45,431 nucleotides of DNA from a bacterium (lineage in GTDB: Bacteria; Latescibacterota; Latescibacteria; Latescibacterales; Latescibacteraceae), in assembly GCA_021372535.1 (NCBI GenBank), contig JAJFUH010000123.1:1-45431 (forward strand), given 5' to 3'. A model generated the notes under the pieces. That model ran no database searches. It worked only from the letters and a program-made list of their open reading frames with translations, and was not told the DNA's origin. Shown here piece after piece: positions 9,570 through 38,187 of this stretch (its first letter is position 1; every line of letters starts with the position of its first letter). Both the position numbers and the translations under genes were made by a program.

Positions 9570-10751
9570 ATGGCCGATAGAGATCGTCTTTTTGATCTTA
9601 TCGATGACGAGGAAGTAATCCAGGTGACCCATGACATGGTTGCCATACCATCGGTAACAACCCACGAGGGGCGGGGCATGCTCGGATTCATGGAACAGTG
9701 GTTCGATGATCTCGGCATCCCGTACCGTGAATATGAAACCGAAGACAGAAGAGCGAATTTCTTTGCCGATTTCGGTGCTGTAAGCGGCCCCGGCCGGTTT
9801 ATATTCAACGGTCACCAGGATACGAAACCGGTGGACGGCATGACAGTCGATCCGTTCGGCGGCGTGATCAGCGACGGGAAGATGTACGGCCGCGGCGCAT
9901 GCGACATGAAATGCGGCCTTGCGGCGATTCTCTGCGCTTTCAAGGCGCTCGTCCGTGGTGGTTTCAGACCCGCCCGGGGTATAACCTTTTACAGCGACAT
10001 CGAGGAGGAATTCGGCGGCCCCAATGGCATGACCCTCATGATCAGTCGCGGCCTGCTGGAGGGTTACGAAGGTTTGATCTCCTGCGAGCCGACAAACCTC
10101 GATGTTCAGATCGGGGACAAGGGAGGGCTCACGACCTGCTTCGAAACGATCGGGAAATCGGCCCATTCCGGGCTTGCCCACCTCGGAATCAACGCCATAC
10201 AGAACATGGCCCTGTTCATAGGGGAATTCCTCGAACTGCCCTACCTGAAAAAAAAGAATCCCTATTTCGGCATGAGCACCATCAATTTTGAAAAAATCGA
10301 CGGCGGACTCTACCTTTCCGCAGTACCAGACCGCTGCACCGTATGCGTCGATTCTCGTCTTATTCCGGAAACACCGATCGAGGAAGTGAATAAGGAAATC
10401 ACCGACCTCATGGAGCGGCTCAACCGCGAGCACGGCATCAATATCCGTGAAATCGACCCGCCAGCAAGCTGGCGTCCCCGCAGGGGAGGTATCTCATCAC
10501 AGCATATTTCTCCGGATCATGAGCTTACGAAACGGGTAATCCGCGCGGTCTCGGCGGTTACCGGAACGAAAGCAACCGTTTCCGGGTGTCCCGGCGCAAC
10601 AATTGCGAGCCAGATGATTGTGCGCGGCACACCGGCGATAATCTGCGGTCCGGGTGCAATCGAGCAGGCGCATACCGAAGACGAATGGGTCGACATAACG
10701 CAGATACCCAAAGCCGCCCGAATCTATGCACTTCTTATGGCTGACATGTGA
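9570..10751 (+). CDS. M20 family metallopeptidase/deacylase, paralog 1
   Basis: A 393-residue zinc enzyme of the M20 (ArgE/DapE/CPG2) family, which hydrolyses N-acyl amino acids or small peptides. All five expected metal ligands are present: H82 and D84 in GHQDTKPVDG, D112 in GRGACDMKCG, E146 after the catalytic E145 in DIEEEFGG, E173 in SCEPT and H368 in EQAHTEDEW. The dimerisation (lid) domain lies in between, with the conserved SAHSGLAHLGINAI. There is no signal peptide, so it is cytoplasmic. It is the first of three same-length tandem paralogs. AAAAGGGG precedes the ATG. The three may act on different acyl or peptide substrates, but sequence alone does not separate desuccinylase, deacetylase and dipeptidase. 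Confidence 0.9.
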   Translation: MADRDRLFDLIDDEEVIQVTHDMVAIPSVTTHEGRGMLGFMEQWFDDLGIPYREYETEDRRANFFADFGAVSGPGRFIFNGHQDTKPVDGMTVDPFGGVISDGKMYGRGACDMKCGLAAILCAFKALVRGGFRPARGITFYSDIEEEFGGPNGMTLMISRGLLEGYEGLISCEPTNLDVQIGDKGGLTTCFETIGKSAHSGLAHLGINAIQNMALFIGEFLELPYLKKKNPYFGMSTINFEKIDGGLYLSAVPDRCTVCVDSRLIPETPIEEVNKEITDLMERLNREHGINIREIDPPASWRPRRGGISSQHISPDHELTKRVIRAVSAVTGTKATVSGCPGATIASQMIVRGTPAIICGPGAIEQAHTEDEWVDITQIPKAARIYALLMADM

Positions 10752-10862
10752 AAACAGGATATTTTTTCACCGGATGACCGGGAACGTATTATATTGGAAT
10801 AAGTAACTGATTTCTGAAACTGGGATTCTCAATGTACATATCTCAAGAAGGATGCACCTGCC

Positions 10863-12044
10863 ATGCCCCACATTGATAAACTGCTTTCATTGCTCGATGA
10901 CGACGAAATCATCCAGGTCACCCGCGAGATGGTGGCCATACCCTCCATCACTCACCATGAGGGAATGGGGATGGTCAACTATCTCGTGAAATGGTTCAAG
11001 GACCTCGGCATCCCTGCCCGTCTCTATCCCTACGACGAGGACCGCTCGAACTTTTTCGCCGATTACGGTACAACGAGCGGGCCGGGCCGGTTCATGTTCA
11101 ACGGTCATCAGGATATCAAACCGGTGGACGGCATGACTGTCGATCCGTATGCAGGAGAAATCCGCGACGGCAGGATGTACGGGCGCGGAACCTGCGATAT
11201 GAAAGGCGGTATCGCAGGGGTGCTGTGTGCATTCAAAGCGCTCGTCCGGGCAGGAGTCAAACCGAAGGGCTGCATAACGCTGTTCAGCGATATCGAGGAG
11301 GAATACGGCGGTTTTGGCGGATATTACTGGGCACGGGACCGTGGATTGTTCGAAGGCTGCGAGGGACTGATTTCCTGTGAACCCACCGAGCTCCAGATCC
11401 AGATCGGCAACCGTGGCGCCTTCGCGACGAGCTTCGAAACAAAGGGCCGTTCCGCCCACTCCGGACTGGCGCATCTCGGAATCAACGCCATCCATAACAT
11501 GGCGCTGTTTATCAACGAGTACCTCAAGCTTCCATACCTCAAGGTCGAAAATCCGTACTTCGGCAGGCCAACGGTCAATTTTGAAAAAATCCAGGGAGGA
11601 CTGTATCTCTCCGCGGTGCCGGATCGCTGCCAGGTATGCGTCGATTCACGGCTCATCCCTGAAACCCCGCCGTCGCTCGTTCAGAAACAGGTGGACGAGC
11701 TCATGAGCCGTCTGAACCGTGAGCACGGCATCAACATCAGCGAGGTTCCCGAGCCCGAAGGCTGGCGCGCCAGAAGCGCCAAAAACGGCGCCGCATCCAT
11801 TTCACCCGATCATCCCTTTACGCAACGCGCGGTCAGGGCTTTCAAACATGCGCTCGGCGTCGATCCGGTTATCGGCGGCTGCCCCGCGGTCACCATCGCC
11901 ATGGTGCTCATCGAAATGGGTATTCCGGCCATCATCTGCGGCCCCGGCTCGATTTCCAAGGCGCATACCGCGGACGAGTTCATTCCGGTCGATGAACTCC
12001 TCAAAGCAGCCCGAATCTATACCGCTCTCATGGCCGAAATGTAA
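10863..12044 (+). CDS. M20 family metallopeptidase/deacylase, paralog 2
   Basis: The second 393-residue M20 enzyme of the tandem array. It keeps the same zinc and catalytic residues: HQD in FNGHQDIKPVDG, D in GRGTCDMKGG, EE in DIEEEYGG, E in SCEPTEL, and the C-terminal histidine in SKAHTADEF. It shares with paralog 3 a GYYWA stretch after the EE motif that paralog 1 lacks, so 2 and 3 look like the more recent duplication. It begins 111 bases after paralog 1, the last ten of which include AAGGATGCA as a possible ribosome binding site. Probably cytoplasmic and co-transcribed with its neighbours. Substrate unknown. Confidence 0.9.
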   Translation: MPHIDKLLSLLDDDEIIQVTREMVAIPSITHHEGMGMVNYLVKWFKDLGIPARLYPYDEDRSNFFADYGTTSGPGRFMFNGHQDIKPVDGMTVDPYAGEIRDGRMYGRGTCDMKGGIAGVLCAFKALVRAGVKPKGCITLFSDIEEEYGGFGGYYWARDRGLFEGCEGLISCEPTELQIQIGNRGAFATSFETKGRSAHSGLAHLGINAIHNMALFINEYLKLPYLKVENPYFGRPTVNFEKIQGGLYLSAVPDRCQVCVDSRLIPETPPSLVQKQVDELMSRLNREHGINISEVPEPEGWRARSAKNGAASISPDHPFTQRAVRAFKHALGVDPVIGGCPAVTIAMVLIEMGIPAIICGPGSISKAHTADEFIPVDELLKAARIYTALMAEM

Positions 12045-12065
12045 TCCGGAAGGGAGAAATTTTTC

Positions 12066-13247
12066 GTGGCGGATATCGAAAAACTGTTCAGCCTGCTCGA
12101 TGAAGACGAACTCGTACAGGTGACCCGCGATCTCGTGGCTATCCCGTCCATCACCCACCATGAGGGAATGGGGATGGTCGATTATTACGTGAAATGGTTT
12201 GGGGATCTCGGAATACCCGTACGCATCTATCCCTTCGATGACAACCGCGCGAACTTTTTTGCCGATTACGGCTCTGCTGACGGCCCCGGACGGTTCATGT
12301 TCAACGGTCATCAGGATATCAAACCGGTGGACGGCATGACTGTGGACCCCTACGCCGGAGAAATCCGCGACGGGAAGATGTACGGCCGCGGCACCTGCGA
12401 CATGAAAGCCGGGCTTGCTGCGATACTGTGCTCGCTTAAAGCACTTGTCCGCGCAGGAGTGAAACCGGCAGGCGGTATCACCTTTTTCAGCGATATCGAG
12501 GAAGAATACGGCGGAAAAGCCGGATACTACTGGGCGAAGGATCAGGGTCTCTACAACGGTTTCGAAGGAATGATCTCCTGCGAGCCGACCGAACTTGAAA
12601 TCCAGATCGGCAACCGGGGGTGTTTCGTCACAAGCTACGAAGCGAAGGGCAAATCAGCTCACTCCGGCCTGCCGCACCTCGGAATCAACGCAATCCACCA
12701 TATGGCCATGTTCATCTCCGAATTTCTCAAGCTGCCATACCTCCAGGTCAAAAATCCGCATTTCGGGAAACCGACGGTCAATTTCGAGAAAATCGACGGC
12801 GGCCTCTACCTTGCCGCCATTCCCGACCGGTGCCAGGTCTGTCTCGACTCACGGATCATTCCCGAAACACCGCCCGAGGTTGTACAGAATCAGGTGGACG
12901 ACCTTCTGGAACGACTCAGCCGCGAGCACGGTGTCACCATTACCGAGGTGCCGGAACCGGAAGGCTGGCGTGCAACAGGCGGCAAGCTCAAAGCGGAATT
13001 CATCCCGCATAATCATCCCCTTGCTCTCCGTGTGGCGGACGCCGAACGTAAAGCTCTCGGCCGTAAACCGGTCATCAGCGGCTGCCCGGGAGTCACCGCG
13101 GCGATGGTTTTCATCGCCATGGGCATTCCCGCTGTCATCTGCGGGCCGGGATCGGTCGCGCAGGCTCACACCGAGGACGAATACATCGAAGTGGAACAGA
13201 TACCGAAAGCCGCCCGTATCTATACCGCGCTCATGGCGGGCATGTAA
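12066..13247 (+). CDS. M20 family metallopeptidase/deacylase, paralog 3
   Basis: The third 393-residue M20 enzyme, starting at a GTG only 21 bases after paralog 2 with GAAGGGAG as ribosome binding site. The zinc ligands and the catalytic glutamate are intact (HQD; GRGTCDMKAG; DIEEEYGG; SCEPTEL; AQAHTEDEY). A 53-base tract at 12291-12343, covering the first zinc-binding motif, is identical to 11088-11140 in paralog 2, more conserved than the flanking sequence. This suggests gene conversion or recent duplication. The array then meets a convergent CYTH gene after 50 bases with no obvious terminator. Likely role: amide hydrolysis in amino-acid or peptide catabolism. Confidence 0.9.
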   Translation: MADIEKLFSLLDEDELVQVTRDLVAIPSITHHEGMGMVDYYVKWFGDLGIPVRIYPFDDNRANFFADYGSADGPGRFMFNGHQDIKPVDGMTVDPYAGEIRDGKMYGRGTCDMKAGLAAILCSLKALVRAGVKPAGGITFFSDIEEEYGGKAGYYWAKDQGLYNGFEGMISCEPTELEIQIGNRGCFVTSYEAKGKSAHSGLPHLGINAIHHMAMFISEFLKLPYLQVKNPHFGKPTVNFEKIDGGLYLAAIPDRCQVCLDSRIIPETPPEVVQNQVDDLLERLSREHGVTITEVPEPEGWRATGGKLKAEFIPHNHPLALRVADAERKALGRKPVISGCPGVTAAMVFIAMGIPAVICGPGSVAQAHTEDEYIEVEQIPKAARIYTALMAGM

Positions 13248-13297: not shown

Positions 13298-13930
13298 TCA
13301 GTACATTCCGCCGACAAGCTCCATTCCGAGGATATACTTCGAGGGTCCCGCTTCTTTCAGATCGAACCGTTCATTGAGCCATTGTCCGATACGGTTAAGG
13401 CCGTTTTCCGCTCCGGCCAGCGATTCGACCTCCAGCTCCAGAACCGCTGCCTTCCCTTTCGCACCGCAGAAGGTGACATCATCGAGCACAAGTTCGTAGT
13501 CCGCTTTTTCACCGCCGCGGGCAAGAAGTATGACTCGCCGGTTGTTGACCGATTCGAGGCTCCTGAACAGGTTCACGATTCCGATACGGTCAAAAAGCGC
13601 ACTGACAGGCGGCAGGTCGGGAAGATGCCCGTGAACGATGTCCTCCGCTGTCGCCATGGTTTCGGCTTCGACCTCTATTCGGCGGAAAAAGCCCTCGCCG
13701 GAGGGAGCCTCGGCCTTGAGCGCAAGCACCGAGCCATGCCCGGTTGTCCGGAGCCTGAAGACGATTTTTTCGCGGCACATCCGGTAATCGACGGTGTCAA
13801 AGTAGGTATCGGTGTGACGGATTATTCCCTGATCCAGAGTCCGCCATGAGGCGATTTCATCGAGCGCCGCGATACGGTCGAATACAGTCCTGTCCGTCAC
13901 GGTGAATTTGATTTCGGATTCGATGGCCAT
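13298..13930 (-). CDS. CYTH-domain protein (triphosphate tunnel fold)
   Basis: A 210-residue CYTH family protein of the triphosphate tunnel metalloenzyme superfamily (class IV adenylate cyclase, thiamine triphosphatase, tripolyphosphatase). The signature ExExK is E4-E6-K8 in AIESEIKF. Tunnel-lining charged residues follow in order: FRLR, LALKAE, RRIEVEAE, YELVLDDV, VLELEVE and SKY. There is no membrane segment. I choose the ATG at 13930 because it directly precedes the ExExK strand, with GAGAGGGGAG 12 bases upstream; the frame extends another 18 codons upstream. It is transcribed toward the M20 array and away from the CotH locus. Whether it makes cAMP or hydrolyses a triphosphate cannot be told. 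Its closeness to a VTC-domain gene of the same fold is notable. Confidence 0.85.
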   Translation of the reverse strand: MAIESEIKFTVTDRTVFDRIAALDEIASWRTLDQGIIRHTDTYFDTVDYRMCREKIVFRLRTTGHGSVLALKAEAPSGEGFFRRIEVEAETMATAEDIVHGHLPDLPPVSALFDRIGIVNLFRSLESVNNRRVILLARGGEKADYELVLDDVTFCGAKGKAAVLELEVESLAGAENGLNRIGQWLNERFDLKEAGPSKYILGMELVGGMY

Positions 13931-14414
13931 ACAGCCGTTTTTCTCCCCTCTCCTTTTATTTCCTCTGTCCATCAGTTTGATCACCGGACAACACTTGTAT
14001 TCTATATATAGAGCGACTGCAGCGCAAGGTGTTTATACCTTTATGTCTGACAGGAGATGATGAGATGCTCGACATTGCTGCTATTACGAACTTATTTTAA
14101 TTCCTCAAAAATTCTCAATGCATATAATAAATATATTAAATACATACAGTTACGAATTAGTATAATTCAAGTATTACAAAAGTTAATATTCAGTGAAAAA
14201 AATGATAGAGAATCATTAAACCATTTTTATTAGTCGTGAGTCGAAATTAACGAGTGAGATTTACCACAGACAATGCCATGTACTGTAGTATCGGCATGAA
14301 CATCTTTGATCTTTTTCCAAAAAAAACCGATGATTGCATGGTATGTTTTTTTCGAATCCCCATGATTTGCCAGTGGATACATGAAATAAAATACCGTTTG
14401 GAAGGGTTGCTGTC
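13931..14414. other. AT-rich divergent intergenic region upstream of the CotH locus
   Basis: 484 bases between the divergently transcribed CYTH and CotH genes, noticeably more AT-rich than both. It should contain both promoters. A weak imperfect hairpin with A- and T-rich arms lies near 14320-14352. No supported gene or repeat family was found here. Confidence 0.4.
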
Positions 14415-16925
14415 ATGAACCGTATCAATCTTCTGTTATTGTTGATATCAGTATTGGTCTATCCATGCGCTGCGGATGCAAAGGATGGTGTATTTCTGGA
14501 ATACATGAATTTATCCGATGACGGCCTCATGACACTGCATGGTGGAGACACCGTATCGGGATTGTATCAGGAAACCGAGTTACGAACCATCTATCTTGAG
14601 TTCGCCCAGGCAAACTGGTGGCAGCTGCTCACATGGAACTATATAACCGATACCGATATTCCTGCCAATCTGATTTTTGAAGGGGTGACATATCCGGGCG
14701 TCGGTGTGAGATTCAGGGGAAACACATCGTACATGATGGTCATGAATTCGTTGAAAAAAAGCTTTAACATCACGATCGATTATACCGACCCCGATCAGAA
14801 GCTCATGGGTTACAAAACGCTCAATCTTCTCAATTCGAATGCCGATGCCTCTTTTCTCCATGAAGTTCTGTTTTTCACCATCGCCCGTAACTACATCCCA
14901 TGCCCCAAAGCCAATTTCGTCAAACTGGTCATCAACGGCGTAAATTGGGGAGTATATATAAACAGCCAGCAGGACAATTCCGACCTTATCGATGAATGGT
15001 TCCTGAGCGATGACGGCGATCGATGGAAAGCCGTTTCCGGCGGAGGTATAGCCATGAATCCGCAGATTCCGGATTCGTTGAGGACTAATCCGCAGATTTT
15101 CGGCTTGAATAAAGACGCCGAACGTCCCAATCAGGGCGGAGGGGGAAATCCGGGAGGCGGTTTTGCCAGCGGGGAAAAAGCGCTCATGTGGCTGGGCAGC
15201 AATACGTCGGCATATCAGGCGGCCTATGAACTCAAGACCGCACATTCCGCCGATCCGTGGGCATCTCTTATCAGAACCTGCGACATTCTCAACAATTATC
15301 CTCTCGAACAGCTTCCCGATTCGCTGGTCACCGTCATGGATGTCGACCGGTGGCTGTGGTTTCTTGCGGTCGAAAACGTATTTGCCGATGACGACGGTTA
15401 TCTGGTGAAGGGGGCCGATTATCTGCTGTACTTCGAGCCGGAATCGGGGCGGCTGCACCCCATTGAGCACGATGGCAATGAATCATTCCTGGCGCGCTCC
15501 GTCAATTTGAGTCCTTACGATGGTGAAACCAACGTCAACCGTCCCGTCATAAGCCGTCTTCTGGCAGTACCCGAATTCCGTCAGAGATATAACGCCCATG
15601 TGAGAACAATAATCAGCGATTTTCTCGACTGGGCGGTACTGGAACCGAAGATTTCGGCATACAGGGCATTGATCGAAGAGGAAGTAAAGGGGGATTCGAT
15701 AAAATTATATTCCGACAGAGAGTTCGAAAACAGCTTTACCCAATTGGAGAATTTTGTGACATCACGGCGCAGCTACCTGTTGAGTCTCAATGAAATCAAC
15801 AGGCAGGCGCCGGTAATTATTTCGGTAAGCTGCGAAAATGTCAACGGTAACAATAATTCCGCTCTCCCCCTGAATTCGGTGGCTGTGACAGCCACAATTG
15901 GCGGCGCGGTTGTGACGGGGGAAGTGAATCTCTATTACGCCTCAGGGCTTACGGGGCCATTCCTGCACAGCAGGATGTTCAATGATGGCGCTCATGGAGA
16001 CGGAAAAGCCGGAGACGGAACATGGGGCGGTTTCATCCCATCATCCTTAACGGGGGCTGCTGTCCGCTACTATATTGAAGCCCGTGCTTCCGATGATGCC
16101 GGGACAACCGCTTATTCACCATCTGGGGCCGAACACGATGTGTATTATTACTCAACAGCCGTAAAAGTCGCTGAGGACACACCGGTCGTGATCAATGAAT
16201 TCATGGCTTTGAACAAATCGACGATTCAGGATCCGCAGGGTGATTACGATGACTGGATCGAGCTCAAGAATGTCAGCACCCGGGAGGTCGATCTTACGGG
16301 AATGTACCTGAGCGACTCTCCCGGCAATCCCAGGAAATGGGCTTTCCCCGAAGGAACGACGATTTCTCCGGGAGCCTGGCTGATAATCTGGGCCGACGAG
16401 GACGGCGGCGACGAGCCCGGGCTTCACGCCAATTTCAAGCTCTCGGGTGACGGCGAATCGATTCTCCTGGTCGATACGGACGATCGGTCGAACCAGATTC
16501 TCGATTCGGTCGAATATGAAACTCAGGAAGCGGATATTTCATACGGCAGATATCCGGATGGCGGAGATGCGTTTATCACCCTGTCGGCTCCCACACCTGC
16601 ATCGGCAAACGAATCGAACCCGTCGGATATCGATGAATCGACACCGCAGGATTTCATTCTCAAACAGAACTTTCCCAATCCGTTCAACAACTCCACGATG
16701 ATAAGTTTTACGCTGCCTGAAAAAGAGTTTGTCGAACTGGACATATACAGTGTTTTAGGTCATAAAGTCGGTACAGCGGCCCGCGGTTACTATAATGCGG
16801 GAAGCCATAATGTTACCTGGGACGGAAGAGACGAACGGGGAAACGAGCTGGCAAGCGGGATATATTTCTACCGCCTCAAAGCGGGGATTTATACGAAAAC
16901 ATGCCGGATGATGTTCCTGAGGTAG
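14415..16925 (+). CDS. Secreted CotH-kinase-like protein with lamin-tail domain and C-terminal sorting domain
   Basis: An 836-residue secreted protein. Residues 1-22 are a signal peptide. Residues about 50-460 form a CotH kinase-like domain: VGVRFRGNTSYM, KKSFNI, KTLNLLNSNAD, and near residue 350 the HPIEHDGNESF segment that corresponds to the metal-binding WDxD-like motif of CotH. CotH kinases of Bacillus spores phosphorylate coat proteins. Residues about 590-700 are a lamin-tail (LTD) domain (VVINEFMALN, DWIELKNVS, GAWLIIWAD). Residues about 750-836 are an FCB-type sorting/FlgD-like domain (NFPNPFNNSTMISF, ASGIYFYRLKAG). The protein is therefore probably cell-surface or released. It heads a plus-strand run with HlyD-like, VTC and DUF4956 genes. 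GGAAGGGTTG precedes the ATG. Its kinase activity and target are inference from the family. Confidence 0.88.
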   Translation: MNRINLLLLLISVLVYPCAADAKDGVFLEYMNLSDDGLMTLHGGDTVSGLYQETELRTIYLEFAQANWWQLLTWNYITDTDIPANLIFEGVTYPGVGVRFRGNTSYMMVMNSLKKSFNITIDYTDPDQKLMGYKTLNLLNSNADASFLHEVLFFTIARNYIPCPKANFVKLVINGVNWGVYINSQQDNSDLIDEWFLSDDGDRWKAVSGGGIAMNPQIPDSLRTNPQIFGLNKDAERPNQGGGGNPGGGFASGEKALMWLGSNTSAYQAAYELKTAHSADPWASLIRTCDILNNYPLEQLPDSLVTVMDVDRWLWFLAVENVFADDDGYLVKGADYLLYFEPESGRLHPIEHDGNESFLARSVNLSPYDGETNVNRPVISRLLAVPEFRQRYNAHVRTIISDFLDWAVLEPKISAYRALIEEEVKGDSIKLYSDREFENSFTQLENFVTSRRSYLLSLNEINRQAPVIISVSCENVNGNNNSALPLNSVAVTATIGGAVVTGEVNLYYASGLTGPFLHSRMFNDGAHGDGKAGDGTWGGFIPSSLTGAAVRYYIEARASDDAGTTAYSPSGAEHDVYYYSTAVKVAEDTPVVINEFMALNKSTIQDPQGDYDDWIELKNVSTREVDLTGMYLSDSPGNPRKWAFPEGTTISPGAWLIIWADEDGGDEPGLHANFKLSGDGESILLVDTDDRSNQILDSVEYETQEADISYGRYPDGGDAFITLSAPTPASANESNPSDIDESTPQDFILKQNFPNPFNNSTMISFTLPEKEFVELDIYSVLGHKVGTAARGYYNAGSHNVTWDGRDERGNELASGIYFYRLKAGIYTKTCRMMFLR

Positions 16926-17039
16926 AACTTTTCCGGACGCTCCCTGATAACCTGCTCCGGCACCGTAACTTAAAGAACGGAAACAGCACCGGGTTCGTCA
17001 CGAACACCATTGTATCCGCCCGAACCCTGGAAAAAGAGA

Positions 17040-18095
17040 ATGATTATGCTGCGTTTTATAATAACCATAACAATTGTCGTGACCATTGCGGCGATTCTTT
17101 ATGCCGTACCGGTAAAAATTCCCTATTCCATCGAAGCCCCCGGAAAGATAGTCCCGCTGAAGGAATGGATACTCGTTCGGGGCGAGGATGGTCTTCTCTC
17201 GGCCACGCTTTATAACAATGTTCTCAATCTTCCCGAGAGTTACAGCATCACGCATGTCGAGAGAGGTGATCATGTCACCTTCAGGCTCAACGAAAAATTG
17301 ATGTCCTGCGAATCGGTAGCCGCAGGGGATACTGTCGGATTTGTCAATTCACATAATGTGGAACTCCAGTGGGCACAGCTCAGGGGAGAATTATCGACTG
17401 AACTTGCCACGCTCAAGCTCTATGAGACCGGAGACAAAGAATCTCTTGTCAGGGAAGCCCGATTCCAACTGGATTATGCTCAGAAGCAGGTGGAACACCA
17501 GAAGACAGAGATTTCACGTCTTGTCTCGCTGGCCGAGAAAAAAATGATACCCGAAGCGGACATGGAACGCGAGGAAACTACCCTGAGGCTGCTGGAAATC
17601 AATACCGATATAGCCAAAGCCCGGCTCATCACGGCTCAGACCGGTTCCAAAAAAGAGCAGAATGACCTGGTGCGTGCACGCATCACGGCTCTTCGGGACG
17701 AGATCGACGTTCTGGAAAAGCGGCTGCGCCTGTCAACGATAACATCGCCTATTTCCGGACGTCTCGTTCGCTTTTCACGGAGCGACACGCTGGCAGTCGT
17801 ACAGTGCGATACACGCTATGCGGTGGTTTTTCCTGCACGATGGGAGGATCGCACCGACATCGTTCCGCATCAGCGGGTCAGGTTGTCAGTGGAAGGTCTG
17901 GAAACTCAGCCCGAGGGTGAGATCGAGCATCTGTGTCAAAACGTATTTGTGGTTAACGGCCGCCAGCTCCTGCGTGTTGCCGCTGTCATCGAAGAAGGAA
18001 CAACGGAGCTCTCGCCGGGTGTGATAGCGAACTGTTCAGTTATATGCCCGCCGGTGAGACTGTATGAATATATATTGAGATATTTCGGACAATAA
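17040..18095 (+). CDS. HlyD-like membrane-anchored periplasmic adaptor
   Basis: A 351-residue protein with an N-terminal transmembrane anchor (residues about 3-21), then a beta segment (SIEAPGKIVPLKEW) typical of the start of HlyD/membrane fusion proteins. A long coiled coil follows (about 115-230, rich in Q, E, K and L heptads, including QKQVEHQKTEISRLVSLAEKK), then the returning lipoyl-like strand (STITSPISGRLVRFS) and a beta-barrel region. Such adaptors link inner-membrane exporters to outer-membrane components, but no ABC or RND partner is encoded nearby; its neighbours are CotH, VTC and DUF4956 genes. The start is set at ATG 17040 (ATG 17046 is equally possible); the TTG at 17010 lacks a binding site. 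It ends two bases before the VTC gene start, indicating tight translational coupling. Confidence 0.75.
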   Translation: MIMLRFIITITIVVTIAAILYAVPVKIPYSIEAPGKIVPLKEWILVRGEDGLLSATLYNNVLNLPESYSITHVERGDHVTFRLNEKLMSCESVAAGDTVGFVNSHNVELQWAQLRGELSTELATLKLYETGDKESLVREARFQLDYAQKQVEHQKTEISRLVSLAEKKMIPEADMEREETTLRLLEINTDIAKARLITAQTGSKKEQNDLVRARITALRDEIDVLEKRLRLSTITSPISGRLVRFSRSDTLAVVQCDTRYAVVFPARWEDRTDIVPHQRVRLSVEGLETQPEGEIEHLCQNVFVVNGRQLLRVAAVIEEGTTELSPGVIANCSVICPPVRLYEYILRYFGQ

Positions 18096-18097
18096 CA

Positions 18098-18868
18098 ATG
18101 GGCCGTCTTGAATATAAATACCTCGTTCCGGTTGAAAAACTACCGGAACTTCGCCGCGCATTCTTACCTTTTATCGAGATGGATGAATATATGCCGAGTG
18201 AAACCGGTGAATACAGTGTTCACAGTATATACTTCGATACCCTCTCCCTCAATTGCTATTACGAAAAGCTTGCAGACATTCAACATCGTAAAAAAATCCG
18301 TGTCCGGGGATATAACAACCAGTCCGGGGATTCGCTCATTTTCCTCGAAATAAAGCATAAAAAAAACAAATCCGTGACTAAAAACAGGGCGTCGTTCCTG
18401 TTCAGGAATATGGAAGCCCTGTTCAACAGCAGGGATATCGGGAGATTCATAAAAAACGGTGACGGAACATCACGTGCATACGAAGACGCCAGGCTGTTCT
18501 TTTACCAGATCGGCAGACATTCCCTGTTCCCGGTCATCAATATCCATTATGAGCGCGAAGCCTATTTCTGCAGATTCAACAAATCGCTGCGGATTACATT
18601 CGATAAAAACATCAGGAGCACAGCTTATCCGGATATTAAGGATTTATTCAAAGAAGACAGAATTCTCTATTCCAAGCGGGGTTTTTGTGTTCTTGAAGTG
18701 AAATTTCATGACTTTTCCGGAGATGTGCCCGGATGGATCGGAGAGATACTTGAACGTTTCGATCTGAAGAAGACATCCGTTTCGAAGTATACAATAAGCC
18801 TGGACACCCATCAGATACCTAAATGCTCTGCCTCATATTTAATTTCAAAGTTCGTTTATACCGGCTAA
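18098..18868 (+). CDS. VTC-domain polyphosphate polymerase-like protein
   Basis: A 256-residue protein with a complete VTC domain, the tunnel-shaped catalytic domain that makes inorganic polyphosphate from ATP in the yeast VTC complex. Expected charged tunnel residues are present in order: E5 and K7 in LEYKY, R68 and R70 in IRVRGY, E84 and K86 in FLEIKH, K95 and R97, R153 in HYEREAY, R165 in LRITFD, E200 and K202 in VLEVKFH, and S229-K230-Y231. There is no membrane segment, so it is cytoplasmic or peripheral. It starts two bases after the HlyD-like stop and ends 25 bases before the DUF4956 gene. VTC and DUF4956 genes are frequent neighbours and often occur with CotH. Polyphosphate synthesis here is inference from motif conservation. 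Confidence 0.88.
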   Translation: MGRLEYKYLVPVEKLPELRRAFLPFIEMDEYMPSETGEYSVHSIYFDTLSLNCYYEKLADIQHRKKIRVRGYNNQSGDSLIFLEIKHKKNKSVTKNRASFLFRNMEALFNSRDIGRFIKNGDGTSRAYEDARLFFYQIGRHSLFPVINIHYEREAYFCRFNKSLRITFDKNIRSTAYPDIKDLFKEDRILYSKRGFCVLEVKFHDFSGDVPGWIGEILERFDLKKTSVSKYTISLDTHQIPKCSASYLISKFVYTG

Positions 18869-18893
18869 TTCGAAACAAAGGAATTATGTATCC

Positions 18894-19568
18894 ATGAACG
18901 GAATCCAGGACTTGAACAACCTTATTCAATTTTCGCTTAATCCGGGCCAGTTTATCAGGAATCTCCTCATAGCGCTGATATGCGGTTTTCTTATTTCCCG
19001 TTTTTACCGCTGGACCTCGAAACCGTCGAATAACGCGAAAACGTTTGTAAATTCATTGATTACCCTGACCATGATCACAGCCGTGGTCATCATTGTTATC
19101 GGGAACAATCTTGCCCGCGCATTCGGCCTGGTGGGCGCCATGTCGATAATCCGCTTCCGGACAGCGGTGAAGGACGTTCAGGATATCGTGTTCATTTTCT
19201 TCAGTCTTGCTATCGGAATGGCTTCGGGCATCGGTTTGCTGATGATATCTCTTGTCGGCACGGTCACTATCGGTATGGTAATGCTCGGAATTGCCCATGT
19301 ACAATCATACACGCACATGAAAAGGAACTATCTGCTTCAGTTTTCCATACCCGCACAAGCCGACAATGATGCACCGTATCTCAAGATATTCGAAAAATTC
19401 TGCGCCAAACATCATCTCATCAATATGAAATTCTCCGAATACGACGATCATTTCGATCTCTCATTCTATATCAAGTTAAAAAACCAGAATGAACGGGACA
19501 GTTTTATCGTGGAGCTATCCCATATCGATGGAATGAAAAACGTCAATCTCCTGTTCGAAGAAGAATAA
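18894..19568 (+). CDS. DUF4956 membrane protein
   Basis: A 224-residue inner-membrane protein of the DUF4956 family. Four hydrophobic helices lie in residues about 20-140. The most conserved stretch is GLVGAMSIIRFRTAVKD (about 74-90), where two arginines sit next to a glycine-rich membrane segment reminiscent of the MgtC/SapB pattern. The last 75 residues are a soluble domain with alternating strands and helices (YLKIFEKFCAKHH, DHFDLSFYIKLKN, GMKNVNLLFEEE), ACT-like in appearance. AAAGGA precedes the ATG. It is the last gene of the CotH-HlyD-VTC run. Its biochemical role is unknown; the association with VTC suggests transport or regulation linked to polyphosphate, which is inference. Confidence 0.85.
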   Translation: MNGIQDLNNLIQFSLNPGQFIRNLLIALICGFLISRFYRWTSKPSNNAKTFVNSLITLTMITAVVIIVIGNNLARAFGLVGAMSIIRFRTAVKDVQDIVFIFFSLAIGMASGIGLLMISLVGTVTIGMVMLGIAHVQSYTHMKRNYLLQFSIPAQADNDAPYLKIFEKFCAKHHLINMKFSEYDDHFDLSFYIKLKNQNERDSFIVELSHIDGMKNVNLLFEEE

Positions 19569-35085: not shown

Positions 35086-38000
35086 CTATTTCACGAGCAT
35101 CATCCTTTTTATGTCAACATTGTTCCCCGCGATGAGCCTGCAGAAATATATCCCGCTCGCATATTGACCGGCGTCCCACTTAAGTGAGTGGATTCCGGCC
35201 GAATAATAACCATCAGCCAGTTCGGCGATTTCTTCGCCCACGGCATTGTACACTTTGAGCGAGATTCCGCACTCTCCGGGGAGAGAAAAGGTTATCGTCG
35301 TGACCGGATTGAACGGATTCGGGTAATTCTGGAACAGGGAGAACTGCTTGGGATTCACGGATTCATCCACCGCCGTTATTTCTCCGGCCGCGAATATGCC
35401 TATGACCGAGATTCCGTTCGGATTGTATGTACCGTTTCCCGAAGTGAAAGAAGTGTAAACGTCATATGTTTCCCCGGAAGACTTATCCCAGAAAACGAAC
35501 TGGCAGGTTTCCCCCGGAATGATCCCGTCTTTCACCGTTGTCTGGTCATTATCGCCCCAGACGGTAATCGCAAGATTGTTGTTCTCATTCCAGACCCCCA
35601 CGCCCACACAGATTCCATCGGGAGAAAACACCCCGATTTCATCGCCGGTGGATAACGGCTGTCCGTTTACGACCGGATTGGTATCGTGCCTGAGCAGAAT
35701 TGTCGCGTTATTCCCCGTATTCTCGACAGGAACGAAGTACGCGGGAGCCAGAAATTCGCTCTTCTGCTTTTCTCCGGCGTTACTGTACGTGAATACTGCG
35801 GGTTTCTGGACATATACCCAGTATCCTTCCCCGCTGTGCATCGTGCCGATCTGATCGATGGCGAATTCAGGCCAGAATACTTTTCCGGAGCCGTTTTTAA
35901 CGATAATCTTGGTGTCATTGAGCGAGCTGAACGCAATCGATGGATTAAGCCCGTCCGATCCGACATAGCTGATAAGGTTCCAGTTTTTCGTGAGATTATA
36001 GGCCACATCCGGTGTAAAAACTTCCCATCCGGATAAAACAAGCTCGCCGCTTTCTTTCATAAACACCTGGTAACCGTCGGAGATAACACATTCACCGATC
36101 TGATCGATGGCATATGAAGGAAGATACGCCTGCCCTTTTCCGTTTTTAACACAAACCACATTATCCGAGACATTTTCAAAAATCTTTTTCACATTTTTCT
36201 CGTTCAAAATGACCGGAAAAGAAACGAGATTCCACCCATCGGAAAGCTGAATCGTGCATTGCGCAACAGTCGTTTCGAGGGATTTCAGAACGGAAATCCC
36301 ATCGACCTGGTAGGTTTCAGGGCCGCTTTCGAATACCGGAGTAACGACATACTCTTTTTTCTCCGAGACATCCCAGATTTTAAAACGATAGAGTTCCCCG
36401 ACCATGAATCCGTTGACACCTTCGGCATACCCGTCATCACCCCAGACAGTGACCGCAAGATTATCACCGGACCAGATTCCCGCGCCGGCGCATAAACCAC
36501 CCGGAGTGAATACACCGATTTCATCGCCGTTACCAATCGGAGTTCCGTTCACTACAGGTATTCTGTCAGACGGAATCAACACCAGCGCATTGTTTCCCGT
36601 GTTTGCCATAAATGCGAAATGGGACGTCGATTCGCTATTACCCTGTGATACCCACTTATTTCTTCCCCAGACAATATATGCCTTGCCCGCATACTCTCTT
36701 CCATAGGGGCATGCCATGTGTGCGCCCGTAAAAGCATCGGCAAAGCCATCGCCATTCAAATCACCGCATCCTGTCCTGAATCCGACATACTCGCTTGGAC
36801 TTTCGGTATAAATTTTTATTACATCCCGCCGGGAATCCGTAACACTGATATGCTGAACCGTATGTAAATCCGTACTGCCAAAAATAATATACAATGCTCC
36901 TCCGGCTCCGGCCCACGCGGCGCCCATGACAATATCATCTATACTGTCTCCATTCATGTCACCTATGGAGGGACATAAACTGGTGCCGATCCCTTCTCCG
37001 TAAACCGTTGTGAAAGCGGTAACCAAAGGATCGAGTGGAATTTTTTCATGCGAGGAAATATTTAGCTCCCCATAAACTATATACAGTTTCCCGCTGCCGA
37101 TGGCGCTGATGATAACATCATCATACCCGTCATGGTTGACATCGCCGGAAATCACGATATTCCCGGCCTGATCATCGGAATGTGCCCCGGGAATCCGCAG
37201 CATCCCCGTGACAGGATCACGGAGGTCGATCTCGTGCACTGTCGAAATGGTTGACGAGCCAAAGATCACATACGTTTCCCCGGCCCCCTGCATGCCATCG
37301 GGGTCTGCCACACGGGAACCGATGAGCAGCTCGTCGAAGCCGTCGCCGTTCAAATCCCCCGAACCTGTAGCCCATGGTGCGCTGTCGCTGTAATTATCGA
37401 TAGAACCGATTCCAAAGACTTTCAATACCCCGTCAGGAGTTCCGACCAGGTCAATATCGCTGTGATCCGGAAGGTCTTTCGAACCGAAGACGACATATGT
37501 AGTACCGGCATCGACCCTCCCCAGAGGATCGGCAAGATAGGCTTTGAGGATGGCATCCTCGAAGCCGTCGCCATTCAAATCGCCCTTCGAACCCAGAAAT
37601 CCCAGGTTATCCCCATCCGCTTCTCCCGAAACGACAACCATTGGACCATTATAAGAGGACACATTGATCTTACTTAATGCAGAAATCTGCGCCGAGCCGA
37701 AAATGATATATACTTTCCCCGCACTGTTGCGACCAATCGGGTCGGCCTGCATCGCCGGAATAATAAGATCATCATACCCGTCGTTGTTCATGTCGGCTGC
37801 CTGAACCCAGCTTCCCAGCAGGTCCCCCTCGTTCGCTCCCTCGATTGTCAACACTCCGGAGGGATTTTCCGCGAGATCGAGAATCGTCTTTGATGACATG
37901 TTGTTCGAACCAAAAATGACATACGTTTCCCCGGCTTTATACTTCGTGCCGATTGAAACTTCCGTTGCCCCGATTATAGCATCGTCGAAGCCATCACCGT

Positions 38001-38187
38001 TGATATCCCCCGACGCCACGGAAAGCCCGATCTTGTCGTCCGCCTTTTTTCCCGCCACCATCATGATATTACCGGGTGACAGATTGCTCAGAAATATATC
38101 GGCCGATACTTCGGCCTGTTCCGCGGCCAGAGAAGCGGATAAGGAAATGAATACCATCGTTAGTGTAAGAGAATAAAATTTACTCAT
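35086..38187 (-). CDS. Secreted FG-GAP beta-propeller surface protein with C-terminal sorting domain
   Basis: A 1033-residue exported protein. Residues 1-21 are a signal peptide. Seven FG-GAP/integrin-alpha-like repeats, each with a calcium-binding DxNxDGxxD loop (GDINGDGFDDAIIGA is the first, GDLNGDGFADAFTGA the last), cover about residues 56-490 and fit one seven-bladed propeller. One loop (GDMNGDSIDD) is degenerate. Then come two copies of a module of about 110 residues (ANTGNNALVLIPSDRIPVVNG near 530; ENTGNNATILLRHDTNPVVNG near 825). These flank a duplicated GWNLVSF/NWNLISY module (about 650-810). Residues about 948-1033 form the FCB sorting domain (NYPNPFNPVTTITF, ASGIYFCRL). AAAGGAAGG precedes the ATG. 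Likely a calcium-binding adhesin or cell-surface scaffold; ligand unknown. Confidence 0.9.
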   Translation of the reverse strand: MSKFYSLTLTMVFISLSASLAAEQAEVSADIFLSNLSPGNIMMVAGKKADDKIGLSVASGDINGDGFDDAIIGATEVSIGTKYKAGETYVIFGSNNMSSKTILDLAENPSGVLTIEGANEGDLLGSWVQAADMNNDGYDDLIIPAMQADPIGRNSAGKVYIIFGSAQISALSKINVSSYNGPMVVVSGEADGDNLGFLGSKGDLNGDGFEDAILKAYLADPLGRVDAGTTYVVFGSKDLPDHSDIDLVGTPDGVLKVFGIGSIDNYSDSAPWATGSGDLNGDGFDELLIGSRVADPDGMQGAGETYVIFGSSTISTVHEIDLRDPVTGMLRIPGAHSDDQAGNIVISGDVNHDGYDDVIISAIGSGKLYIVYGELNISSHEKIPLDPLVTAFTTVYGEGIGTSLCPSIGDMNGDSIDDIVMGAAWAGAGGALYIIFGSTDLHTVQHISVTDSRRDVIKIYTESPSEYVGFRTGCGDLNGDGFADAFTGAHMACPYGREYAGKAYIVWGRNKWVSQGNSESTSHFAFMANTGNNALVLIPSDRIPVVNGTPIGNGDEIGVFTPGGLCAGAGIWSGDNLAVTVWGDDGYAEGVNGFMVGELYRFKIWDVSEKKEYVVTPVFESGPETYQVDGISVLKSLETTVAQCTIQLSDGWNLVSFPVILNEKNVKKIFENVSDNVVCVKNGKGQAYLPSYAIDQIGECVISDGYQVFMKESGELVLSGWEVFTPDVAYNLTKNWNLISYVGSDGLNPSIAFSSLNDTKIIVKNGSGKVFWPEFAIDQIGTMHSGEGYWVYVQKPAVFTYSNAGEKQKSEFLAPAYFVPVENTGNNATILLRHDTNPVVNGQPLSTGDEIGVFSPDGICVGVGVWNENNNLAITVWGDNDQTTVKDGIIPGETCQFVFWDKSSGETYDVYTSFTSGNGTYNPNGISVIGIFAAGEITAVDESVNPKQFSLFQNYPNPFNPVTTITFSLPGECGISLKVYNAVGEEIAELADGYYSAGIHSLKWDAGQYASGIYFCRLIAGNNVDIKRMMLVK

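Follow-up and report, generated by a model that had tools for sequence, protein, structure and literature searches.

A conserved periplasmic adaptor-VTC-DUF4956 gene triad with a possible role in trans-envelope export of polyphosphate

Results

Gene organization of the locus

The window analysed here is the whole 45,431-nucleotide (nt) stretch of contig JAJFUH010000123.1 (assembly GCA_021372535.1, Latescibacterota), and our subject is a group of four plus-strand genes within it, which encode a secreted CotH-kinase-like protein, a periplasmic adaptor, a VTC domain and a DUF4956 membrane protein (Table 1). A first-pass annotation, made from the sequence alone, had described a secreted CotH-kinase-like protein, a membrane-anchored HlyD-like adaptor, a VTC domain with its charged tunnel residues conserved and a four-helix DUF4956 protein. 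The description withstood verification throughout: the four open reading frames (ORFs) are all open, with the coordinates and domain matches as given, and the gaps are 114 bases between CotH and the adaptor, 2 between the adaptor and VTC, and 25 between VTC and DUF4956. The core unit is the adaptor-VTC-DUF4956 triad (H-V-D). The genome containing the window is a 5.35-Mb draft, 95.9% complete, with one VTC gene, one CotH gene, one PPK1 gene and about 15 TolC-family genes. It also encodes SprA, the translocon of the type IX secretion system (T9SS).

Table 1. Genes and key residues of the locus (positions are those of the window)
Feature	Position	Strand	Basis or remark
Secreted CotH-kinase-like protein of 836 aa, with signal peptide, CotH and Lamin Tail domains and a FlgD_ig/T9SS sorting tail at the C-terminus	14415..16925	+	domain searches
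Asp327 of CotH, which aligns with Asp224 of the B. cereus protein; probable equivalent of catalytic B. subtilis Asp228	15393..15395	+	alignment to 5jd9
Asp353 of CotH, which aligns with Asp247 of the B. cereus protein; probable equivalent of catalytic B. subtilis Asp251	15471..15473	+	alignment to 5jd9
HlyD/MacA-like periplasmic adaptor with a membrane anchor at the N-terminus, beta domains and a long alpha-hairpin	17040..18095	+	start ATG 17040 or 17046
Adaptor hairpin tip with TolC-docking RLS motif, R158-x3-L162-x6-(S/P)169	17517..17552	+	family alignment; tip 165-169 in model
VTC domain, polyphosphate polymerase-like, every checked Vtc4 active-site residue kept	18098..18868	+	genome's only VTC
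DUF4956 protein: four membrane helices and ACT-like domain	18894..19568	+	profile match, model

Conservation of the adaptor beside VTC and DUF4956

Six DUF4956 queries were scanned against 84,980 species genomes, which gave 80 loci. After addition of relatives from the window's own phylum and removal of duplicates, 87 readable loci were obtained; seven of them end before the gene upstream of VTC, leaving 80 informative loci in a sample of the nearest DUF4956 relatives. The adaptor lies immediately upstream of VTC on the same strand in 74 of the 80, and the adaptor-VTC and VTC-DUF4956 gaps in the H-V-D order are mostly shorter than 20 nt. Judged by their record titles, these loci come from seven phyla: Latescibacterota, Neomarinimicrobiota, Ignavibacteriota, Calditrichota, Zixibacteria, KSB1 and Bacteroidota. 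The background in the same flanks was 4 further adaptor matches against 604 other ORFs, and an adjacency of 74/80 versus 4/604 is far above chance. The first-pass annotation had named loss of the HlyD-like gene beside VTC-DUF4956 in related genomes as evidence against its proposal, and we found the gene conserved there. The triad adaptor family is single-copy per genome, scoring 323-541 bits with the next best match at ≤112 bits. In the genome of the window the triad adaptor scored 541 bits and the next match 30 bits; in ten named genomes it scored 323-436 bits wherever it occurs, with every other match at ≤112.

The distances between the three proteins point in the same direction. Pairwise protein distances co-vary, with r of 0.67, 0.68 and 0.80 for adaptor-VTC, adaptor-DUF4956 and VTC-DUF4956, respectively, against a permutation maximum of 0.16; these values, uncorrected for species phylogeny, show the joint inheritance of the three proteins.

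Adaptors normally need ABC, RND or MFS transporters (PMC8277102). ABC ATPase motifs encoded on the strand of the triad, no more than 4.5 kb from it, were found in 1 of the 74 loci. The other 73 showed no ABC transporter beside the adaptor within that distance and on that strand, RND and MFS transporters not having been searched by profile in the relatives, and domain searches of the window's genes found no ABC, RND or MFS transporter in its operon. With ABC ATPase motifs in a single locus, the usual inner-membrane partner therefore appears to be missing. No neighbour family from outside the module recurs in more than 9 of the 87 loci. A secreted SdiA-regulated/Phytase-like beta-propeller gene lies near or directly downstream of DUF4956 in 9 loci from several phyla (L014, L016, L031, L033, L060, L069, L073, L087 and L094) and may be a further partner.

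The three core proteins

The HlyD-like protein of the window alone has no Pfam match and weak NCBIfam HlyD matches (3e-8). The profile of its family (73 sequences) matches MacA (6e-15), EmrA (9e-10), AcrA (2e-8) and also HlyD; the underlying alignment, A3, includes a MacA-like neighbour (L041:9365-10621) that is not a triad adaptor, which does not materially change the counts. The AlphaFold2 model, with a mean predicted local distance difference test (pLDDT) score of 92.6, has a membrane helix at residues 2-20, beta domains, and a hairpin of helices 103-164 and 170-229, and its closest solved folds in a Foldseek search are MacA (1.7e-15) and EmrA. Judged from the model, the protein can confidently be assigned to the MacA/EmrA-type hairpin proteins. 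The tip of the hairpin carries a family motif, R-x3-L-x6-S, in which Arg is kept in 72, Leu in 64 and Ser in 50 of the 73 sequences; the RLS motif of MacA, AcrA and MexA binds the TolC tip (PMC3391258). Anchor, beta domains, alpha-hairpin and the family-level RLS motif are all present, and on the predicted structure the protein is a member of the HlyD/MacA/AcrA adaptors.

The VTC protein matches PF09359 over residues 3-235 of 256 (2.5e-43), and its family profile aligned to yeast Vtc4 at 6e-23. Residues of the window protein are identical to Vtc4 K200, Y241, D243, R264, R266, E279, K281 and K294, and also to Y359, R361, R373, D377, E426, K428, S457 and K458, positions that we take to be the tunnel residues of the Vtc4 structure. 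The mapped active-site residues are invariant in 47 VTC sequences, Gram-positive ones included. By its sequence the gene belongs to the PF09359 polyphosphate polymerase family; polymerase activity, with polyphosphate as the product, is predicted. Because the genome also has PPK1, the product is probably intended for a special place and not for storage. A CYTH-domain protein (PF01928, 2.3e-13), from the enzyme superfamily of VTC, is encoded just upstream of CotH on the opposite strand (window 13298-13984, minus).

The DUF4956 protein matches PF16316 at 8e-15 (55.4 bits against a cut-off of 30.6) and has weak similarity to MgtC. Its model (pLDDT 88.5) shows four membrane helices followed by an ACT-like domain at the C-terminus. 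Arg75, Arg87 and Arg89, in the segment NNLARAFGLVGAMSIIRFRTAVKD, are nearly invariant, and it is an attractive idea that such basic residues of the modelled protein might line the path of a polyanion.

Other adaptor types and the type of envelope

The single triad adaptor family is not the only one joined to VTC and DUF4956. Two loci of the window's own phylum (L014, L015) and one of Bacteroidota (L166) have the order DUF4956-HlyD-TolC-VTC, with the middle genes identified by Pfam as HlyD_D23/HlyD_3 and OEP (PF02321). Among the 80 informative loci, two beyond the 74 with the triad adaptor carry a different HlyD-like adaptor together with a TolC-type channel. In L164 and L165 the order is VTC-DUF4956-HlyD, with an adaptor of another type. 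Thus at least three adaptor types are joined to VTC-DUF4956, and for one of them the module includes an outer membrane channel; nothing else points so strongly to a trans-envelope conduit. The TolC-family channel lies inside the module in L014, L015 and L166; for the window it is encoded elsewhere in the genome.

The presence of the adaptor was compared with the type of envelope. Among 118 Bacteroidota genomes we found 27 VTC loci, comprising 13 with H-V-D, two with VTC-DUF4956-HlyD, one with DUF4956-HlyD-TolC-VTC, one with DUF4956-CotH-VTC that lacks an adaptor (L167), two truncated at the end of a contig, and eight that belong to a distinct subtype. In single-membrane bacteria 27 VTC loci were examined, and none of them has an adaptor. 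These comprise 21 loci, in 19 of 201 genomes, from the phylum of locus L037 (Anaerolineae, hence Chloroflexota, which we take to be single-membrane), 5 of which have a DUF4956 of the shared subtype, and 6 loci from Bacillota and Actinomycetota that lie on plasmid records. For the shared subtype, an adaptor accompanies 16 of 17 loci in Bacteroidota (three adaptor types) and 0 of 10 in single-membrane bacteria (Fisher p 1e-6, without correction for relatedness). In Planococcus, a 308-aa protein encoded upstream of VTC was considered as an adaptor and rejected, as it is not adaptor-like. The first-pass annotation had missed the module variants with a TolC-type channel, and also that the single-membrane bacteria examined lack the adaptor.

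CotH

The CotH protein matches the Pfam CotH (PF08757, 1.1e-39), Lamin Tail Domain (1.8e-16) and FlgD_ig (1.6e-8) families, and its T9SS tail scores 33 bits with TIGR04183 (cut-off 23). With a signal peptide, this tail and SprA in the genome, it is probably a surface protein. Mutants of Asp228 and Asp251 in B. subtilis CotH are inactive (PMC7821199); the corresponding B. cereus residues were assigned from the 23-residue spacing. By alignment to 5jd9 and this spacing, both aspartates are present in the window protein, which has Asp in place of the Asn of the template's HNY motif. By profile match and these two residues it is a member of the CotH kinase family, with predicted kinase activity.

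With a profile limited to the kinase domain, CotH was found no more than 4.5 kb away in 25 of the 87 loci; in 13 of these it follows DUF4956 directly, with a gap of less than 60 nt. A count of 41/87 from a full-length-ORF profile was rejected, as Lamin Tail/T9SS tails and arylsulfotransferases matched that profile too. Most triads thus have no adjoining CotH, which is a common but optional neighbour and would be at best a client that often accompanies the core.

Discussion

Trans-envelope delivery as the preferred reading

What could a polymerase, a small membrane protein and a periplasmic adaptor do together? Delivery across the envelope is the best reading, because 74 of 80 loci keep the adaptor, the adaptor hairpin carries a TolC-docking tip and VTC keeps its catalytic residues. 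We give about even chances to the proposal that the three proteins are one envelope-spanning machine that makes polyphosphate and exports it to the surface. Cytoplasmic VTC would use ATP to make inorganic polyphosphate or a chain of similar chemistry. The growing chain would be taken through the inner membrane by the small DUF4956 protein with its conserved arginines; in yeast, the membrane domains of Vtc proteins take the growing chain through the membrane. The adaptor, with a TolC-type channel, would carry the chain on to the surface, where CotH, arriving via the type IX system, may be a frequent partner. We infer the passage through DUF4956, the direction of export and its coupling to synthesis, the assembly with TolC, the identity of the channel and of the client, and any use by CotH. 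In the stronger form of this reading, which we hold to be somewhat less probable than not, polymerase and DUF4956 would replace the ABC, RND or MFS transporter in a new class of tripartite export machine of double-membrane bacteria, with polyphosphate threaded through adaptor and TolC-type channel and driven by polymerisation.

Several observations weigh against export by such a machine. The surveyed loci are not independent samples, because the survey drew on the nearest DUF4956 relatives. The window adaptor keeps Arg and Leu of the RLS motif and has Pro at the third position, the most tolerant one in published mutants (PMC3391258), and adaptors also occur in Gram-positives, with other roles (PMC4446572). 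A structure search found no solved structure resembling the membrane part of DUF4956, which makes a pore a guess. An ordinary polyphosphate kinase, PPK1, is also encoded in the genome, so VTC is dispensable for a storage polymer and may have another product. No adaptor adjoins VTC-DUF4956 in WOR-3 and Rokubacteria, which we take to be double-membrane lineages, or in L167, and a second Bacteroidota VTC-DUF4956 subtype has a distant DUF4956 and no adjoining adaptor (L152-L159, L168, L169). The rule that the adaptor occurs only with an outer membrane is thus not absolute.

The WOR-3 loci without an adaptor have other neighbours. The VTC-DUF4956 cluster contains a Porin_O_P ('phosphate-selective porin') gene in two of them (L040:8695-9744 and L187:850-1839), and in L185, L186, L187 and L188 VTC-DUF4956 is joined to several T9SS-tailed proteins (CotH, arylsulfotransferase-like proteins and SBBP beta-propellers). 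In L184 an unassigned gene of 339 aa lies directly behind DUF4956.

Alternative explanations

The alternative that survives best, although we consider it unlikely, keeps the trans-envelope complex and makes the adaptor a scaffold, which couples or regulates VTC-DUF4956 with the export of a surface polysaccharide or protein, the phosphate chemistry controlling or decorating another polymer. Streptococci have VTC-DUF4956-CotH in Pel operons, and loss of DUF4956 or CotH lowers Pel and aggregation (PMC7112168, PMC12345266). The ACT-like domain of DUF4956 is of a regulator type, its similarity to MgtC is compatible with such a role, and two loci (L167, L098) lie among sugar-transferase genes. Most H-V-D loci, however, including that of the window, are without common polysaccharide genes, no outside family recurs in more than 9 of the 87 loci, and the RLS tip suggests a conduit and not a scaffold alone.

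Was the system built for CotH? The first-pass annotation had proposed that polyphosphate or another phosphate donor is exported specifically for the phosphorylation of surface proteins by secreted CotH. The close spacing of CotH behind DUF4956 in 13 loci is what this would lead one to expect, and the window CotH is the sole copy in the genome, with both catalytic aspartates, a sorting tail and a matching T9SS. Known CotH, however, uses ATP, and we know of no protein kinase of the CotH fold that uses polyphosphate; the HNY Asn is Asp in the window protein, and only 25 of the 87 loci have the CotH kinase domain nearby. Polyphosphate as the phosphate donor of CotH is speculation, and we regard feeding of CotH as an improbable purpose of the system. 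Of that proposal, delivery across the envelope is supported as the best reading, whereas the purpose is not supported.

We consider it equally improbable that the gene order reflects operon inertia, with the adaptor serving a separate efflux pump whose transporter is encoded elsewhere and VTC-DUF4956 acting alone at the inner membrane. The usual need of adaptors for a transporter and the occurrence of VTC-DUF4956 without an adaptor in single-membrane bacteria would fit. The tight gaps across seven phyla, the co-varying distances, the joining of three adaptor types to VTC-DUF4956 and the lack of an ABC transporter beside the adaptor at 73 of the 74 loci argue otherwise. Least probable of all is that VTC has drifted to a different reaction of triphosphate or polyphosphate (hydrolysis or sensing, for example, as in other CYTH/TTM enzymes) and that the complex senses or pumps something else: the wider CYTH/TTM superfamily, VTC included, has several activities and PPK1 is in the genome, but the checked Vtc4 catalytic residues, including the equivalents of E426, S457 and K458, do not vary among the 47 sequences.

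Relation to known systems

The nearest described relatives are VTC-DUF4956-CotH clusters in Gram-positive Pel operons of streptococci, clostridia and bifidobacteria (PMC7112168, PMC12345266) and in NELoc-2 of C. perfringens (PMC2879425); deletions in S. intermedius link DUF4956 and CotH to Pel-dependent aggregation (PMC12345266). These clusters likewise have VTC and DUF4956 adjacent and CotH nearby, whereas the Pel clusters have no adaptor, belong to single-membrane hosts and are tied to Pel. The three-gene synteny was not found outside Pel in that work (PMC12345266); in contrast, the synteny described here lies outside Pel, extends over many phyla and has the adaptor as its constant third member. 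Our search of the open literature, which did not extend to subscription papers and preprints, found no report of an adaptor paired with VTC or DUF4956, in agreement with the earlier remark that the HlyD-like protein is not known as a described partner.

The catalytic domain of the yeast VTC complex has the same tunnel residues at all checked positions, and synthesis in yeast is thought to be coupled to membrane passage. Here, DUF4956 takes the place of a Vtc1-type domain, there is no SPX domain, and an adaptor and an outer-membrane channel are added. With MacAB-TolC, EmrAB-TolC and HlyBD-TolC the system shares the adaptor fold, the hairpin, the RLS tip and, in some modules, a TolC-type channel; it differs in that no ABC transporter stands alongside and VTC-DUF4956 apparently occupies the inner-membrane place. 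Since the defining ABC transporter was sought and not found, we do not class the system as a tripartite efflux pump. The CotH spore-coat kinase (5jd9/5jda) shares the fold family and the two catalytic aspartates with the window protein, which differs in being secreted, in its Lamin Tail and T9SS domains and in the altered HNY motif.

Polyphosphate has been reported at the surface of bacteria and outside the cell, and we know of no dedicated bacterial polyphosphate exporter. The triad conserved over seven phyla is a concrete candidate for one, with the testable prediction that the adaptor occurs only where there is an outer membrane. If the reading is correct, adaptor/TolC assemblies would have a new type of inner-membrane partner and DUF4956 would have a role; in its strong form, it would describe a new class of machine.

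Two further features of the window lie apart from the locus. Three tandem M20-family peptidase genes of 393 aa each, with a mutual identity of 61-73%, occupy positions 9570-13247 on the plus strand. On the minus strand, positions 35086-38187 encode an FG-GAP repeat protein of 1033 aa with a weak T9SS sorting tail, likely another surface protein.

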